Source: Galdieria sulphuraria
Taxonomy: Eukaryota > Rhodophyta > Bangiophyceae > Galdieriales > Galdieriaceae
Assembly (NCBI RefSeq): GCF_000341285.1
Contig: NW_005178465.1
Location: forward strand, 62,001 to 126,000
DNA length: 64,000 bases
Direction: 5' to 3'
Below, piece by piece: positions 11,628-56,227 of the stretch. The translations under genes were made by a program, and so were the position numbers. The notes under the pieces were generated by a model. That model was not told the origin of the DNA. It saw nothing but the letters and a program-made list of their open reading frames with translations, and searched no databases. Every line of letters begins with the position of its first letter. The stretch's first letter is position 1.

Positions 11628-14105
11628 TCACTTCTTTCCCGTGCTCTTTTTGTTCTTCCTCATACCTTTTTCCACCGTTTTGGAATTCTTGCTGGATACC
11701 TTCGAAGAGGAACTTGGTCCTTTCGAACGAACCAACTTGGAAGCGATCTCTTCCTCATCATGCAAAGTCATATCTTGAACGTCTTCCTCCTTTTTGACCA
11801 CTTCAGTTTCCTCTTGCATCGACTCTCCTTCTTCCACTAAAGCGCTTTCGTTCACTTTATGTACTCTTATGGCAGAAGCGGTAGAAACTCTATGATCTCT
11901 GCTGTTGTATTCCCTCGTAAAAGCAGTTTTCGTAGCAGTTGGAATTTTATCCAACTCAGTGTGACCTTTTTGTTCTAAACTTAATGACATCAAAGTATCC
12001 CAATCATCCTTGGAGAGATAATATGCGTCTAGCCTCTCTATCACATCTGAAACACCATCTTTGCTATTCACCAATGGTGCCGATAATATGCTTCGCAAAC
12101 AAGGGAGATATTCCAACAGGAATGCATGGAAAGAACCCGATATATTGTTACTCATTCTCATTTGTAACTCCATGGTTAAGCGTTTGTTTTTGGAGCGAGT
12201 AGAATTCTTTCCCAACCACGAAGGAAAGTGAATCATATCTCCAAATGGTCCCTAATAATCATTTATCGAAATTAACTCGAAACGAGGATAACAATAACAT
12301 ACCTGAAGCAACTGTCCAGGATAAATTCCAGAGAATAATGCTTGTACCGGCATCAAGTTCCAAGCTTGTTGGCGACGAATCTGTTGTTTTGTATTCATAA
12401 CACGAAAAAAAAGCAAGGATAACTCAGACTTACCAAATCATTGAAAATATCTCCTTCTGCAATGCTCGTTGAGGCTTCAACAAGTTTCTTTAAATCTGAC
12501 GCTTCTCTGCTAATTATGTAATTTTCTGCAACCATCAAAGGCATCAAATCTGGATCCATGAAATAGTTATCCAAACGTCGACTTAACCACTCTCCAGGCT
12601 ATTAAAACATTACATTCTATCCAATACAAAAGTAATGACAATGCTTACAGAAAAAAGACTTTTCACCAGTTCAAAAATACTCATTTCTTCATAAGTCTTT
12701 CCGTCCTGTTTCATTCTTTCCAAAACATCCGAGTAAGTCAAATTTCTACTGTGCGACCTCCAGCTCTGTAACAAGTTGAGAATCTGTCTCATGTCACCAT
12801 GACAACTCTCTACGATCTTTTCTAAGGTTTGTGTGTCCACGTTTTCAAATCCTTCCTTTTTACATATTTCCAACAAACGACTACGAAGTTGACTTGCCAA
12901 AGGACGTCTCCATTTCAGCTTGAGACAATAATTCGCCAAAGACCGAACCTTTATCTTGATAAGTCCCATTTCGATAATATGTTTCACATGCTTACTTTCA
13001 CACTAGAATCATCATTACAGATACACACTATAGGAACCGAAGTTTTCTTAATCAGTTGAATGAGTTCTTGAATTCCACCTCGATCACCAGCTGACATGCC
13101 ATCCACTTCGTCCATAATGATTACTGAACTAGTAGTCTTATCTTTTCCGAATTGATTGAGAGTTTGATTATTTATGACTGAGCCGACTGTAGAAGAAACA
13201 ATTGCACGATTTCTGGTGTCGCTTGCATTAAATTCCATAGGAAAGTAGCCCAACTCCTTCGATACTAATAATGCTGCTGTCGTTTTGCCAATTCCGGGAG
13301 GCCCCGAAAGAAGCACTGCTTTGGGACTACTCTTTCCTTTGTTTTTGGAGCCTTCCTGAGATAAAGAAGCAGCTTTCCAGTTAACCAACCATTCTTTTAA
13401 TGACTTGATAGCCCCAGGATTGGCACATAACTCTGACAGATCGCAAGGTGCATATTTGTATGTCCACAATTCAGAACAAGTAGCACTCTGAGCAATATTG
13501 TTATCAATAGTTGGCTTCTTTTGTTTGGTCTCCTCCAATTTTGTTTTGGTCTCGACTTGTCCCTTCCAAATGTTTGCTGTTGACCTTGCCCTGATCAAGT
13601 CAAACAGTCCATCTTCATCAATAACTTGAATCTTCAAACTAGCAATTTTCGCCATTTTACTCTCTCCCGGTTCCAACCCTACTACAGCAAAATTAACAGA
13701 TTTGCTGGGCGAAGAAACTACTCTTCCCCCTAAAGAACGAATGAGGTCGGTACATTCTTCGCGTTCTAGAGAATCTAAAACACCAGTTATACAAAAGGTA
13801 AGTCCTTGTAAACTTTCAGGACTACCCGTTGGTACAGCTTTCTTTCCTTTGTTAGGGGGTGAAATGGTGTGCTTCCAAGGACCTTTTTGAAAGTATTTCT
13901 TTGACTTCACAATAGATTCCTTGGGACTGGGTGGTTCCGACTGTTTGGGCTTCTTTTGGGTAACGTCACCAAGTTCTTCTCCTATAACGTTGTCTTCTTG
14001 TCCTGACCAGTTGGCTTCGTCATCGCTTTCGGATATACGTTTATGTATCCTTTTCCTCTTTGCTGGCGCTATCTCACCAAAAGTTGAACTTTTCTGTCGT
14101 TTCAT
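11628..14105 (-). CDS. RFC1: Replication factor C large subunit (RFC1)
   Basis: Largest subunit of the clamp loader that places PCNA on primed DNA. The N-terminal part has a basic region, then a BRCT domain (GLTFCITGVLDSLEREEC, IRSLGGRVVSSPSK). The AAA+ module follows with Walker A LLSGPPGIGKTTAA, FNASDTRNR, Walker B SVIIMDEVDGM and sensor VCICNDD. Later exons give the RFC1-type helical C-terminus and end in a lysine-rich tail with STGKK. Roughly four introns interrupt the second half (near 13000, 12620, 12430 and 12270). The BRCT domain distinguishes it from the small RFC subunits. Confidence 0.92.
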
Positions 14106-14238
14106 AAAATTTCAAAAATAATTCTTTTCATTCCAAGAGTTTTCCTTTATCGACACTCAATTATAACTGTATACATATACATTCATATCCTACTAAGTTT
14201 TATCTATCAGGTTCTACGTAAATAGAATAGAATACTTC

Positions 14239-29599: not shown

Positions 29600-32500
29600 T
29601 CACCAACTTTTATCAACAGTTACCGAGGATACATCGCCTTGCTTCCTTACAATATCATGAAAGGCACGAGGAAGATGATTCATAGCTTCATCCATATCAT
29701 GTACAACCACAAAAATGGATTCTTTATCCAACTTTTCCAAAACGTTGGCAACTCTCTTCTTCCCTTCGCTATCTAAATGTTGGAAAACTTCATCTAAAAC
29801 CTGGTTTTTTATCATTCTTGGTTAGTCCATTCTTAATAACTTATTACCTACCATGATATTACAATGAAAGCCACATCTTCGTTCTCCTATATCATGAAAT
29901 GCCAATGCCAATGCAACTCCCAAACGTCGACGTTGTCCACCTGAGAGTTGCGAATAACTTCTATTAGAAAATGAACCATGACTGTTCTTGACAAGTATCT
30001 TCTTATCAATCATTTCTACCATTTGCTCCTTTTTACTCTTTAAACAAGTAAAAGGTCTCAACTCCACTTGGATATGTCCATGGCTGATCATAGATAAATA
30101 GGAATTGATGCGTTGTTGCAGTTCATAAAGTACTTGTTTCAATACAAAATGCTATTCAAATCAGATATCCAATCCATTTCCAACACATTCACTTACCGGT
30201 ATACCTCGAGGACCAAATACTTTATCCAATTGCTGTAAAACTTGTTGGTCTTTTTCTATTCGACGCAATTCTTCATTCCAAGTAGCCAAATATCGGTTCT
30301 GTTGTTCCCAATCTTCTCTTTCCTTTTGAATAAATGAAACAAGAGGATTGTGTGAGTTGAGAATGGCTTCCTTTTCCAACAAGTCCTTTTCTTTCTGTAA
30401 ATATTTGATACGAGCTTCACATTCACTCTTTTCCTTGTGACATTGAGATGCTTTGTTATTCCATTCTTCCAAACGTTGCGATTGTTCTTCATATTCCTTT
30501 TGTAAGTGCTCATATTCTTTCCATTGATTGTCCAACTCTAGTTGATATACTGCTTTCCTCCGTTGCAATGTTTTCATTATAAGATTACTCAAGTGCTCAC
30601 AATTGAACACATCATAGGTTGATTCCTTTGAGATGCCACTTTTACTAGAAACTCTTTCCTCCTCCTCCTCCTTCTTCTTCTTTTCAGTCAACAATTGACC
30701 AAGAAGAATTATCAAATGATTTTTCCAACTTTGTTCTTCATCAAGCTGTTGCCATTCCTTGAAAAGTTGTTTCAATTGCATGATTTGTTGTTGCACATCG
30801 TTTCTTTCTTCCCCTATTCGTTCCTTTTCTATTTGGATATCATTTATTTCTTGTTTGGCTTTGGCCATGGAATTATATACAAGTTGCTGATATTCTTGTT
30901 TGGCTTGGTCCATATGATGTTGAATGTGATTCAATATCTTGGACATTCTTTCTTCTCTTCGTACACTTAATTGATATGTTCTTTGTAAATTTTCGAGTGC
31001 TTTCTTATGATGCGTTGGACTCACAGGTTGTAAACAATAATCACATATCCATTCATCTTCTTCCTTTCCTCCTACTTTTTCCCATTGAGTTTGTAAAACC
31101 ATTTTCTCATTCCATACTTTGGAATATTCCACTTGATATCGTTGATATCTTAATTCCCATTGTTTCCATCTTAAATAGGCCCCTTTTGTTCCATTTCGAT
31201 CCCCAGTTGGCTTTCCTAGTGTCCATTCTTCTTCCCATTGTGTACATTGTCGGGACTTTTGTTTCATCTCATATTGACACTCGTCCCATTGCAGTTGTAA
31301 ACGTTGCAATTGTTCATGGAATTGCTGTTGTGTTGGCTTTTGTTTCAAAATACTTTGTATTTGTTTCTTTCTATCATCTCTTTGTTGCTTCCATCGTTTA
31401 TATTGTTGTTGCCATTCATCATGTTGTTGTTCTATGCATTCCAAATAATTGTACTGATTTCGATGGTTTGCTATTTGTTGTTGTATTGTGGTTATTCCAT
31501 GTTGCAAATCATACAACCTTTGTTTGGTGTCATGTATCTCTTCTTGGATATCTTGTAATCGATCATTCAACTGTTGTAAAACGTCATAATGATCACGTTG
31601 TGGTACACTTGTCACGGAATGACTCGTATGGTGTTCCATTCTATCTAAATGAGATGAATACAAAACATCATTCTCTCTTAAATGGACACGAGTTAATAAA
31701 CGTTGATATTCCATTTGTTGCATTTCTATTCTCGATTCCAATTGCTTGCACCAGTTTTCGGTGGTTTCTATTTGCGACCGCAATCGAAGAATACTTTCAT
31801 CCAACGTCTTGAGCCTGTTTCGAACATAGTGTTTGCAACCTTCCCATATATTCAAAGGAATGAACCGACTCAGTTGTTCCTTCCATTCTCGGTCATTGGA
31901 AGCAAATAAATCATATAGAAAAGTATGCTGTCCAAAGAATACACAATGTGATAACAACCGTGTATCGATCCATCGATCGAGTTGTTGTTGAGTGGCACGT
32001 ATTTCTTGACAAGTCCATTCTTCTCCATCCAACCAAATGCGTAGTCGATGAGAAGCACGTTTTCTTTGTATACAACGAGTTACTTGTAAACTATGTCCAT
32101 TCCATCGACCATAAACGGTGACTTGAGCTTCTTTGCGGTCATCGTGAATCACATGAGAACAAAAAGTCGTGCAAGTAGTGAGACACCACAACGCTGCCAT
32201 CCATAAGGTTGTCTTCCCACTGGCATTGCTTGTACTGGTTATATCATCCTCATTTTCACCAGTTAAGATGACCAGTCCTCGATTGGATAATGGATAAGTT
32301 ACCGAATCACGAAAAGAACCAAAACCATCGATATGTACCCAATCCAAAACTAAATCAATAGAGTTGGATTGTTGACCATCGAAAGATGCATGTTCTTGAG
32401 AAGCAAGTACTTGCTAAGTCATGTTGAGTAGTCATCTATCGTGATTATTCGATATACGTACTTGAATGATTTCCTTTCCAACATCCATTACGGATAAAGA

Positions 32501-33784
32501 CAATTTGTAGACATCTCCATATTGTTGTAATATTCTGATAGGATCTCTCAACTCTGCGGGACTATTCTCGGATTCTATAGAAGAAACCGAGTTTTCCTTG
32601 TCTGGTTCATCAAGAAATGTGAATACTGATGCCTTTTGTTGCCGCACTTGTTCCAGAATGGGTGCAATCTGAGACTCTGGAATATCGGAGTTGACTTGAA
32701 GAAATACTCGGTCTCCAGGTTGTAAGAAATCCAAGGATGAAATGTTCAGAATATCACCGAAATGGTAATAATAATGTTTAGGACCTAATGAAATGGGAAT
32801 GGTTTCCTGTACAGACCAACGATGACTGCGACTTAGTCGTAACAAATACTTTTGTTGTCCACTTTCCATCGCAGAAACTTGATATGGAGAACCAACGTAT
32901 CGAATATGTGTATTGGGTATTTGCTGTGGTTTATGAAAATGACCAGAATATACCGCAACATGGGATGGAAAACAATCCGGTAAAACTCCTTTTGTACAAT
33001 TGAACGAAGAATGGCTTTCATTTCGTATCCATTGAGCACCTTGAATATCGGTATGACAAAAGACTGCGTCTATCTGACTCCACAAGGGAGAGACTGAAGA
33101 GATAACTTTGGTAAACAGATCATCTTCGCGAATAAAAGGAATCCATAAAGCATCCAGAAAAATACTTGGTTGGTCAATGACTAAGGCTGCAGGGTGTTTC
33201 AAAGACACCATAATGGGCAATAAGGAGTGAACCGTTCCATCATAAGAAACTTGGTCGTGATTACCCGGAATCATGATCAACGGCTGTTGCCATCGTTGTA
33301 GTTCTTCAATAGCAGCATTCAAAGGTTCCACTGGTAAAGAACCTCTTCTGTCCCAAAAGTCACCTAAAAATAGAACACCTGCATTCCTTTCATATGCTAC
33401 TTGGTGTACTTGTTTTAATACTTGTATACAAGTTTCTAGGTTATCTTTTCTCAAGTGCAAATCAGAAAACAACACAAATTGGTCGATATTTTCTATTTCT
33501 GGTATTGGAACTAGTTTTTTGACTACAAGGTGTTTGGGTAATTCTGAATTTTCAACACAAGACGATGAGGGAACCTGGTTAGTGGTTGAACGTTGCTGTC
33601 GTTTATGTTTCACAGAATAGCAACTTTTGTCCCATCTTGTTGTGTTGCAAAGTTTTCTAGTTGGGCTGCCAAGCGGACGGAAATGAATATTACTAGGAAT
33701 ACAACTCTTTCCTTGAGTAGTCACCAGCAGAGATAGAAGAAAGAGACACTTGGCACTATGAAATGGCATCCAAAAAGACTGCAT
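29600..33784 (-). CDS. Predicted SbcD-SbcC (Mre11/Rad50-type) fusion protein
   Basis: Exons 33784-32462, 32413-30197, 30151-29852 and 29800-29600 join in frame to about 1,346 residues. The N-terminus is a hydrophobic presequence (KCLFLLSLLVTTQG). Residues about 95-430 are a metallophosphoesterase with FSDLHL, GDFWDRRG, PGNHD, FCHTD and YSGHFHKPQ, the full SbcD/Mre11 ligand set. From about residue 460 it is SbcC: GFGSF, a stretched P-loop (GENEDDITSTSNASGKTTL), long coiled coils, the zinc hook WICDYCLQP, signature YSQLSGGQRRRLGVALALAF and Walker B NIMVLDEVFQHLD. The joining intron is 32414-32461 (GTACGT..TTAG, 48 bases, phase 0). The SbcC half has no ATG of its own upstream of the P-loop. Likely an organelle DNA-end nuclease. 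Confidence 0.8.
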
Positions 33785-33867
33785 TCATTGATATGGATCT
33801 CTATCATGATATAATCTCATAAGCTATTTCTATATTATACATAAATATCTATATTTGTGTGTATGTG

Positions 33868-33890
33868 TATATATATATATATATATATAT
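33868..33890. repeat. (TA)n microsatellite
   Basis: Uninterrupted TA run between the 5' end of the SbcD-SbcC gene and the 3' end of the cytochrome b5 gene. Confidence 0.9.
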
Positions 33891-33984
33891 AATGAATGTA
33901 TGTATATATTCATAAGAGATAATTCACAACCACATTCTACTATTCCTCATCATAGTTTCCAATAGAAGATCCCCAAAAGTAGTT

Positions 33985-52479: not shown

Positions 52480-55400
52480 TCATAATTTATTGACAAGTTT
52501 CCACAAAGTAAGAGAGTGTTGAACAAGATACTGTTGCAACTGTGTTTGAGCGGAAAATGACCGATACTTGAAACAAACTCCAACTTCTCGAGCGACTGGT
52601 GCTAACCAACATGAAGACGTTTTCTTTCGTTGCAACAGCCTCTCTGCAGTGCACCTAGTCACAACACACCAGTAAAATTCCACAACCGGAGGTACCTTTT
52701 TCACTTACTTAAAAGCAAATAAACAAAGGTCACCAACCAATGACCAAGAAAGGGGAAAGGTACAGTCCACAGAACGAGCAACGTCACAAGTTGCCCTAGA
52801 GCGCACCAACCGTATCATACTCGGACAACAAGTATCCACTATGATTGGGAAACAAGGAACTTGCTGTTGGATGTCAAAACTTCTCTTTTGGAATAAAAAT
52901 ATTTGCCTTGAAAGGTGTGACGAGAGTTAACGAGTCCTCCCTTTTTGTGTAGCGACAAACTCGCACTTACCCGAAATACTTTATCGCAAATAGAAGACTC
53001 GCTTGAAATATGTTGAGAATGATTGTTCGCTGACTGTTGATATTAGCATCAATAAGTATAGCGTGGAACTAGTGAGAAGGAAGTGAACTGTATGTCTTGT
53101 AGAGAGCTAGTTTAACTCACCTTCATAGAAAAGACTTGTTGTGCTCTATGCAACAAAGTCTCCCTACATGATTCGGAAGCTTTACAAGATAGCGTGTCGT
53201 AGATGGACGACTCAAAATAACGTGAATAGTCAACAGTAATCTATATTTTGCCAATATGAAACCCTATATATATATTGATGGGACATATGGTTATTGATGA
53301 AACTTACCTCAAGGTTTTGACAGTGTATAAGTAGTCCACACCATGGCAACTGAATAACATTTCTTCTTGAGAATTGTTTTGATAGACCCTGTTCATTCGT
53401 CGTTTCTTCTCCTAGATGAGTACGAGTCTTGTTGCTATTGATACAAAGTCCATATTGGGGCGATCCATTGTTCATGACTTGAAGAAATTGTAATATCTTT
53501 TTCCTATCAGAACTAACATAGAGGAAGTCATCTACGAGCCGTAGACTCAAATGAACCTCCTTTTCTTGTTCAGTTGTTGAAAGATAAGGACTAAGACAAT
53601 GACGTTCGAAATGACCATAATAAAGGGAAGCGATTCTAGAAGAAAGCGTCATTCCTTGAGGTATTCCTTGTTTTTGATGATAAAGTCCATTTCGGAAAAG
53701 GACTATATTATTCATCAAACGTTGTTTCAACACATGTAGTATCGTTTCTCGTGAGAGAACAATTCGTGATACTTGATCGGTAATAATAGCCTTTCTGAAT
53801 TTGTTGGCAATCTTATTTCTGCATAATAATAGAAAATGAGACTCTTCAAGTGGATCGTTACAAACCACCTTCTCAAATTTGGTAAGAAAAGGATTGGCAT
53901 TTTGATGAGTCCTTATGCAGTTAATAAAACAGGATAATCGCTGTACAGCAGTAACTTACCTGAAAGTTGCACAAAAACGAAGAATAACATATTCATCTTC
54001 TTGGAAAAGTTCCGAAAGAATCCTTTCAGTTACAAGCCCAAGTTGAATGGTATCAAAAGCATTAGAAATATCTACGGCTGCCATATACATATGAGGCTTT
54101 CCTGCTGCTTTCCATTCTCGTTTTAGTTTCAACCACGCAAGATAAATCTCATCGAGTGACAATACACACGATGCGAAAAGAAGAGAGTTTTTTCGTCGTT
54201 CAAATTCCATGATGGCTTGTATATTCGTTAAAACATGATTGGTCAAGTTGGAGGTGTTTCTTCGTAATCGTATTGTTTTTCCCTTTTGCTTGAAACTCGA
54301 TTGGATTGGAATTTGTATTTTGCGTAGCCCTGAGGTTTTGGGAAGTAGTCGAAGTTGAGAAATGGTTGCAGACTCCTCCTTGAAAAAAATATAGAGTGAA
54401 TTCAGAATAACACCTACAAACCTACCTCGGAAATTAGTTGCACGTTGGAATGTAACCGTTGAAAGGAAGAAGAAGAAGCATGAAGAGAAGAATGAAAGAG
54501 ATTCTCAATACGTCTCCATACATCTACTCGATAATGTAAAATTCTTTTGCGGAACATTTCAGAGTCCGTGCTATAGAAACATGCAGTTAGAATAGGCTTC
54601 AGGATTGAAAAAACAATCCATCGTAGGAATAGATAGAATCTTCTTCGATTATACTGATATTGGGTTGGATTGCTCGTGTTCTAATGAATGGTCAACATAT
54701 TAATAACGAAAAAAAATGACTTACTTTGGATGCAATCCATGGTAAAGAGTAGAGATCCATCGATTGCATTAGTTGCTGAATGGAGAGTTCATCATCTCTT
54801 CTCAATCGAACTAACTGTGCCAACCATTTGTTGAATATATTTCTATTCCTAGTTGCACCCCAAAGTTGTTGTGGAATAATAAATGAACAGAGAGTAGCTA
54901 AAAATCTGGTAACTTGTCGTGGTCGCGAGTACCAATGCACCAAACGAGCAAAAAGCTCTTGCTGTTGCTGAGCATCATATGTGCCATTATTAATGAACTT
55001 GTCTTCTTCAAGGGACTTGTTGACAGATTCCACTCTTTTACAACTACCTTCAGATGCCAAACGAGCTCTCTTGCCAATAGGAATATCATACATTGGATGG
55101 TGCTTCCTTTTAAAACCACCTGTATGGGACTTGCTAGCAATAATATTGAAAGCTTGTGACGGCAAAGGACAACATCTTTTCAAGATTCCAAGAAGTTTGC
55201 ATTTCCTGCAACGTCGAATTACTTTCAACAACAATGGAAGAATTCTTCTGTTATGTCGAGAGATTCTCTGCTTCTTCATTATATTCAAGGTCTTTCTACT
55301 CTCACAAGTATCACTAGTGAGAGTCCATTTCTGGAAAATACTTTGATACAATATTCTTGCACCAGAAATGGTTGGTGACAACCTAGGAAACAATATGGGA

Positions 55401-56227
55401 GATTTTCCTCTTAATTGCAAAGGAGAATAGCGGCCTTTGTAAAGAATGGACTGAACTGTCCAACGGTCATTCTGTGAGGAGTCACATATTCGCTCTTTCC
55501 ACTGATTATACATTGTCTTGCAGCAGTCTTTAGATTTGTGTATGTTGTCACTGTGATTAGAAAGACTAACAATTGGTTCTCCACAAAGTTGTACCAAACA
55601 TCGATTCTTTCCGACTGGAAACAACAAAGTACATTTTGTCAACCAATATAACATTATTTCATCCCCAACAAATGCCAAAAGTTGTTGCCAAGGAGTGCTT
55701 TTTAGATGCTTAATAATAGTATTGGATGTCCATTGTTGCTGTAACGCAGCGGAATAATGATTGGCTGTCTTTCTTCCATACAATAGAACGTTTGTACTCG
55801 TGGATTTGGAAAGTTTGAGTACAGCGAGATCTACCAACTAGATAACATTTGATAGTCAACGAGAATAAATATGCAATCATATTCAACACTGTACCTCTGC
55901 TTGAGTTAAATATTGGCATCGATCTATTGCTTTGTCAGTTTTAGGATAACTGCAATTACTACAAATGATCAGGTTCCGACGTAAGTTTTCAAACTTTGGG
56001 TTTTTGTTATTTAGAGATGAGGGAGAGGTTGTCTTCATATAGAGCTGGTTACTTTGCAGTTGTTTCTTTCTTCTCTGTCGTCGCTTTTTGGAAGAAGATA
56101 AATTCGAATGGGACGGTTGTCTTGTAGATTCTAGAAAACTAGAAACACTATATACATATTGGAAATATTTTCTAGCTTCTTTTCGAAGCCTTCGCAAGGA
56201 TGTATTCGTTCTTCCATCCAATACCAT
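52480..56227 (-). CDS. TERT: Telomerase reverse transcriptase
   Basis: Catalytic subunit of telomerase, about 1,000 residues in nine or ten exons. TEN domain: RKYFQYVYSVSSFLE, LLAFVGDEIMLYWLTKCTLL, NRCLVQLCGEPI. RNA-binding domain: LATLCSFIIPQQLWGA and motif T ACFYSTDSEMFRKRIL. RT motifs: 1 LRLLPKTSGLRKI, A VDISNAFDTI, B' QGIPQGMTLSSRIASLYYGH, C LRLVDDFLYV, D INSNKTRT, E WCGLLIHCQNLE. The C-terminal extension continues ITVDYSRYFESSIYDT, NINSQRTIILNIFQASLLFA and ends KLVNKL. All three catalytic aspartates are present, and LVDD rather than the F/YxDD of retroelements confirms TERT. Introns of about 48 bases, such as 53914-53961, restore frame. Confidence 0.93.

Follow-up and report, generated by a model that had tools for sequence, protein, structure and literature searches.

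A predicted single-chain SbcD-SbcC gene of phage type, with a stop-containing intron at the seam between its two halves

Gene organization and genomic setting

The minus strand of the window (the whole stretch of DNA that was analysed, 64,000 nucleotides) carries both an SbcD and an SbcC frame, found in the ORF list at 29600-33784. In our gene model both belong to one minus-strand gene, which starts at 33784 and ends at 29600 and whose product after the removal of three GT-AG introns (48, 45 and 51 bases, all three in phase 0) would have 1346 residues. From its N-terminus, the predicted chain consists of an extension, the SbcD/Mre11 nuclease, a short linker, and the SbcC/Rad50 ATPase with its CxxC hook. 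The features of the model are the following:

32462..33784, minus strand: exon 1, residues 1-441, based on the gene model, motifs, family matches and the fold match to SbcD
33784-33500, minus strand: N-terminal extension within exon 1, residues 1 to about 95
Within exon 1, minus strand: SbcD/Mre11-type nuclease, residues about 98-441
32414..32461, minus strand: intron 1, the seam intron, 48 bases, phase 0, containing the SbcD-frame stop
30197..32413, minus strand: exon 2, with the linker, the SbcC/Rad50 N-terminal ATPase lobe and its P-loop, and the coiled coil with the CDYC hook
30152..30196, minus strand: intron 2, 45 bases, phase 0, based on the intron scan and the phage SbcC alignment at the join
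29852..30151, minus strand: exon 3, SbcC C-terminal lobe with the LSGGQ signature
29801..29851, minus strand: intron 3, 51 bases, phase 0, based on the phage SbcC alignment at the join
29600..29800, minus strand: exon 4, Walker B region (VLDE), SbcC end and stop codon

The last base of the stop codon is 29600. A complete SbcC half requires the removal of both intron 2 and intron 3; once they are removed, the alignment to a phage SbcC runs without gaps across the two joins.

Pfam matches on 10 of the 26 long ORFs of the window comprise acetyl-CoA synthetase, BRCT plus AAA domains (RFC1-like), F-box, isocitrate dehydrogenase, DEAD helicase, HSP70, PSMD3, NOT3, a telomerase RNA-binding domain and NifU. 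The flanking genes are thus eukaryotic and, judged by them, the region is a eukaryotic nuclear one. Third-position G+C in two exons of the fusion gene is 0.30-0.31, slightly under the 0.33-0.42 of seven neighbours. The short introns and a G+C content of 39% are in keeping with Cyanidiophyceae. Among the neighbouring genes, the ORF at 54695-55837 (minus strand) with a Pfam Telomerase_RBD match (1.2e-13) is a candidate telomerase reverse transcriptase gene, and the one at 12987-14111 (minus strand), with BRCT and AAA domains, resembles the large subunit of replication factor C. A TA-rich simple repeat, recognised by eye, lies at about 33861-33893, directly upstream of the gene start.

The seam intron

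A sequence-only reading of this DNA had proposed a one-chain gene, whose two frames are joined in phase 0 by a 48-base GTACGT...TTAG intron at 32414-32461 that holds the SbcD stop. Both proposals were borne out by the open gene model, the motifs, an intron scan and an enumeration of the possible splice pairs at the seam, splicing itself being the predicted step. On the coding strand, intron 1 runs from 32461 to 32414 in the form GTACGT...CTTAG, with the SbcD-frame stop at 32434-32432. The SbcC frame is open from 32413, its homology starts near 32338, and the P-loop (SGKTT) is found at 32221, ahead of the first in-frame ATG at 32200, as had also been claimed. The sole other start-like codon among those checked is a TTG at 32347, ahead of the SbcC homology. 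The length of 48 bases is divisible by three, so the unspliced halves share one register, which is interrupted by two in-frame stops, both inside intron 1.

Around the seam, 7 of 31 GT..AG pairs leave an open joined frame, each of them linking SbcD to SbcC, and in only one of the seven (32461-32414) does the donor follow the form GTRNGT. The intron scan covered the whole window and two reversed controls, and its criteria were the pattern GTRNGT...YAG, a length of 38-80 bases, and flanking frames that are free of stops over 70 codons or more. As a result, 11 candidates (10 distinct donors) were obtained in the window versus 0 and 0 in the two controls. Two of the 11, the seam intron and intron 2, fall in this gene; intron 3 is missing because its downstream frame, too close to the stop codon, is shorter than 70 codons. 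From these patterns we infer that intron 1 is spliced in vivo, while its retention would, going by the ORF, yield an SbcD of 450 residues.

Motifs, domains and predicted structure

The chain contains the motifs DLH, GDFWD, GNHD, FCHTD, GHFH, NASGKTT, LSGGQ, VLDE and CDYC, which we take to be complete nuclease and ATPase sets. The meanings of these motifs are given in part by PMC3175470. With its motifs intact, the fused chain would be expected to have nuclease and ATPase activity. The CDYC hook, at residues 898-901, is located midway between the ATPase lobes (marks at about 628 and 1174), as a folded-back coiled coil requires.

The SbcD half was modelled with 17 relatives. In the model, residues 1-79 have no confident structure, most of residues 80-392 are confidently predicted, and a low-confidence helix at 415-440 ends at the splice junction. 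A fold search of this model against the PDB gave E. coli SbcCD heads and SbcD as the best matches (best E 3.2e-14), and the only eukaryotic-titled Mre11 among the fold matches at E 0.001 or better was that of S. pombe, ranked 31 of 32. No eukaryotic Mre11 was found among the PDB sequence matches. An identity with nuclear MRE11/RAD50, which are alike only in the general kind of nuclease and ATPase, was ruled out by these sequence and fold matches. C. merolae carries a nuclear MRE11 of its own, as stated in the available part of PMC6606799; thus, if the source organism is a relative of C. merolae, the fusion would be an additional system.

The linker, counted from residue 441 up to where the homology to SbcC begins (460-467), has about 18-25 residues, some of the starts being taken from a profile seeded with the window and its nearest relative (L001, see below). 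A linker of at least 9-12 residues is reckoned necessary between fused halves in the part of PMC3175470 that deals with it; the longer one seen here makes a normal head with both halves tethered feasible.

Pfam assigns Metallophos to the SbcD half and SbcC_Walker_B to the C-terminal part, both above the cut-offs, and the Pfam scan of the exon-2 part gave no match. The score of the SbcD half against TIGR00619 (SbcD), 50 bits versus a curated cut-off of 77.65, does not reach that of a bacterial SbcD. Better matches were obtained with the PHROGs, namely phrog_100 (SbcD-like, 5.3e-24) and phrog_77 (SbcC-like, 7.1e-22 and 4.1e-21).

Of the N-terminal presequence of the earlier reading, the gene model supports an extension of about 95 residues ahead of the SbcD domain. 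Residues 1-95 include 14 K/R versus 3 D/E, with a hydrophobic stretch at 11-23. More tentatively, the extension may import the protein into the plastid or mitochondrion; given the hydrophobic stretch, secretory as well as organelle targeting is possible. An organelle repair role, suggested by this basic N-terminus, which is predicted to be unstructured, is likewise more tentative.

An unfused phage-type sister

A scan of viral contigs identified L001, a locus of the IMG/VR record 2716884848 (42,722 bases), at E 2e-51. Identity to L001 is 35% over 274 columns for SbcD, and 37% and 34% for the two SbcC lobes. Among 257 fetched loci (redundant ones included), its record scored 180 (SbcD) and 241 bits (SbcC) and the runner-up 117 and 159, with profiles whose seeds included the window and L001 themselves. 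In L001, sbcD and sbcC are separate genes that overlap as ATGA, and they lie in a block with a primase, ssb, a UvsX-like recombinase and a RuvC-like resolvase. Among seven further scanned proteins of the record with no replication role, no structural genes were recognised. Since the window protein is just 33-34% identical to it, L001 marks the lineage and not the donor. The same record also encodes a second phosphoesterase-type "DNA repair exonuclease" (L182:3366-4844; phrog_704, 2.5e-47) and an ADP-ribosylglycohydrolase-like gene (L182:1733-2878).

Outside this record, SbcD matches on plasmids had an identity of about 24-27%. A single-sequence SbcC scan of the viral contigs and a first genome scan were both unproductive. 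The second genome scan gave five loci, of which L107 alone scored strongly, with a profile that has the window and L001 among its seeds. Within the Myxococcota phylum, 7 of 37 genomes match the phage-type profile; the match is strong in the seed genome and weak in the other six. L107 (5983-8420) is from a Myxococcales genome record and has matches to phage-type SbcD and SbcC, perhaps as a prophage.

Phylogenetic placement of the two halves

Before tree building, nineteen locus ids, for the most part loci fetched twice or near twins, were dropped by hand, followed by weak or short matches; rows at least 75% identical were then removed, which left 91 of 157 rows for SbcD and 73 of 117 for SbcC. 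A joined tree was built from 47 hand-picked rows having both halves (711 columns), and a larger joined tree has six fused rows more. In the labels of the SbcD tree, some loci from bacterial genomes (L108-L111, L155, L165, L166 and L171) were tagged "phage" by default, and "prophage" for L107 is a guess. All trees were built without eukaryotic, archaeal and cyanobacterial SbcCD/MR sequences and without the fusions reported in 2011 (see below).

The window and L001 group together with a support of 96 in the SbcD tree and 99 in the SbcC tree, with fused phage proteins as their neighbours (81 and 83, respectively) and within a phage clade supported by 99 (25 rows) and by only 87 (24 rows), respectively. 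In the joined tree, support is 100/99 for the window with L001, 95/91 for their union with six fused phages, 96/94 for the phage clade and 100/100 for six bacterial pairs. The larger joined tree retains the window with L001 (100/99) and the clade (99/98), with the union with the fused phages down to 95/78. In the SbcC tree and both joined trees, the window is a long row (end branch 1.3-1.5), and its letter make-up was flagged as odd.

In topology tests, for which the groups were chosen after the tree had been seen, grouping the window with the six bacterial SbcCD pairs was rejected (p 0.0009), and so was grouping it with the six fused phages to the exclusion of L001 (p 0.0027). Ordinary bacterial SbcCD as the source is ruled out by the former test, as far as sampled. 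The gene had been described earlier as bacterial-derived, for which "phage-type" is the better term, with both halves inside the phage clade and apart from the sampled bacterial SbcCD. A tree of each half against cyanobacterial and other bacterial SbcC/SbcD had been proposed as a check; the trees place both halves away from the six bacterial pairs and within the phage clade, cyanobacterial rows being absent from them.

Fused SbcD-SbcC proteins elsewhere

Taken together, the two profiles (with the window and L001 among the seeds) detected fused ORFs in the fetched loci, 16 in all and 15 of them distinct, as L125 equals L137; two (L114 and L252) extend to the edge of the fetched stretch. The motif GNH followed by D, E or S is present in all 15, and three of them (L087, L114 and L252) gave no match to the signature SGG followed by E or Q. 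Twelve fused phage rows in the larger joined tree require at least four state changes, two of them forced by well-supported branches, so in these viruses the fusion (or splitting) of the pair seems to have happened repeatedly. The nearest relative of the window gene is unfused, not fused. The fused ORFs of L119-L125, L132, L184, L196, L205 and L209, from uncultivated viral contigs, are single ORFs of about 975-1415 residues from stop to stop and are spread over several tree positions. A further one, of 1072 residues (L087:4399-7614), lies on a long branch outside the phage clade of the window.

Thirteen Mre11/Rad50 fusions were described, and viral sources argued for them, by Yoshida, Claverie and Ogata in 2011; those named in the accessible part of that paper are from a moss, a diatom, two Micromonas (prasinophytes), slime moulds, bacteria, a phage and Mimivirus (PMC3175470). 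The earlier statement that SbcD and SbcC are separate genes in bacteria overlooks these cases, as well as the fused viral ORFs found here. The main text of PMC3175470 makes no mention of Galdieria, Cyanidioschyzon or chloroplast, and we found no literature joining Galdieria with SbcC, or titled on a red-alga SbcC fusion, nor any title on such fusions besides the 2011 paper, in a search with preprints and most subscription journals outside its range.

The window protein agrees with this fusion kind in having both domains, the nuclease before the ATPase, in one chain, given the predicted splicing of intron 1, and in the length of its linker; the reported fusions also occur in photosynthetic eukaryotes (PMC3175470, in part). 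As a member of that kind, the window gene lies outside ordinary cellular SbcCD in the present trees. It differs from the reported fusions, as far as these are described in the part available, in having an unfused phage sister for both halves and a stop-holding seam intron. With the phage SbcD/SbcC pairs (phrog_100 and phrog_77; T4 gp47/gp46) it shares the best family matches and its tree placement; unlike them, it is nuclear, intron-bearing and fused, with an extension of about 95 residues. Motifs, order and fold are common to bacterial SbcCD, from which it is set apart by the SbcD score below the TIGR00619 cut-off and by the rejected grouping with the six bacterial pairs.

Origin of the fusion and rival explanations

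What the sequence supports directly is an open gene model, intact motifs, the placement of both halves in the phage clade, and an unfused sister. The explanation that we consider probable is that a phage recombination nuclease was captured by the nucleus, both halves descending together and becoming joined via the seam intron. Its source would be a phage sbcD-sbcC pair, T4 gp47/gp46-like in kind and most like the unfused pair of IMG/VR 2716884848. A second cistron is not normally translated when the gene is nuclear; an intron spanning the SbcD stop would join the two cistrons into one nuclear-encoded chain. The resulting head would hold two nucleases and two ATPases in a fixed 1:1 ratio, with the coiled coils meeting at the hook, and, by analogy with SbcCD, it may open and trim DNA ends and hairpins. 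A more elaborate version, which we regard as doubtful, is that the phage pair was domesticated for organelle DNA maintenance, the stop-bearing seam having been made an intron whose splicing or retention would choose between the fused chain and the free SbcD.

Alternatively, the fusion may predate its arrival, the source being a fused phage, eukaryote or giant virus, with the seam intron a later addition and L001 a split or never-fused cousin. This we judge unlikely. Fused phage ORFs are indeed the next group out in the joined tree (95/91), fusions do exist in moss, diatom and Micromonas (PMC3175470, in the part available), and one fusion plus one split equals two fusions in the number of steps; however, a grouping of the window and the six fused phages that excludes L001 was rejected (p 0.0027, for a group chosen after the tree was seen), the union with the fused phages weakens in the larger tree (95/78), and the intron is located in the short linker between the halves.

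The remaining alternatives concern the gene model itself. A separate SbcC gene was ruled out by the absence of an ATG before the P-loop. That SbcD ends at its stop and that SbcC begins in a 5' exon of its own or at a non-ATG codon would fit the stop at 32434-32432 and the TTG at 32347, yet there is no ATG from the opening of the frame to the P-loop and a well-formed intron links the frames in phase, so that we hold two separate genes to be very improbable. A broken gene was likewise ruled out, by the intact motifs, the gap-free phage SbcC joins and the hook position. Least credible to us is a decaying or misread gene, its two in-frame seam stops being mutations or errors: although the unspliced halves are in one register broken by these two stops, the motifs are intact, the hook is at the midpoint, the stops are flanked by a GTACGT donor and a TTAG acceptor, and the gene has two more introns of similar length.

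Implications

The fusion kind itself is known but sparsely sampled, and the gene is well-formed. For two of its features, the phage-type sister of both halves that is unfused and the stop-containing seam intron, we found no earlier description in the parts of the literature available to us. Viral sources were proposed in the 2011 survey, which in its available part does not single out an unfused viral sister of the eukaryotic fusions (PMC3175470). Here, both halves independently share one unfused phage-type sister, which gives a route from virus to nucleus a concrete, testable form, and the stop-holding seam intron is a readable candidate for the step from a two-gene operon to a single eukaryotic gene. 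Plant organelles use an RNA polymerase, a primase-helicase and single-strand-binding proteins that are T-odd-phage-like, as outlined in the accessible part of PMC7699545. Should the fused protein be located in an organelle, a break-processing nuclease would join this phage-like organelle replication set of plants.
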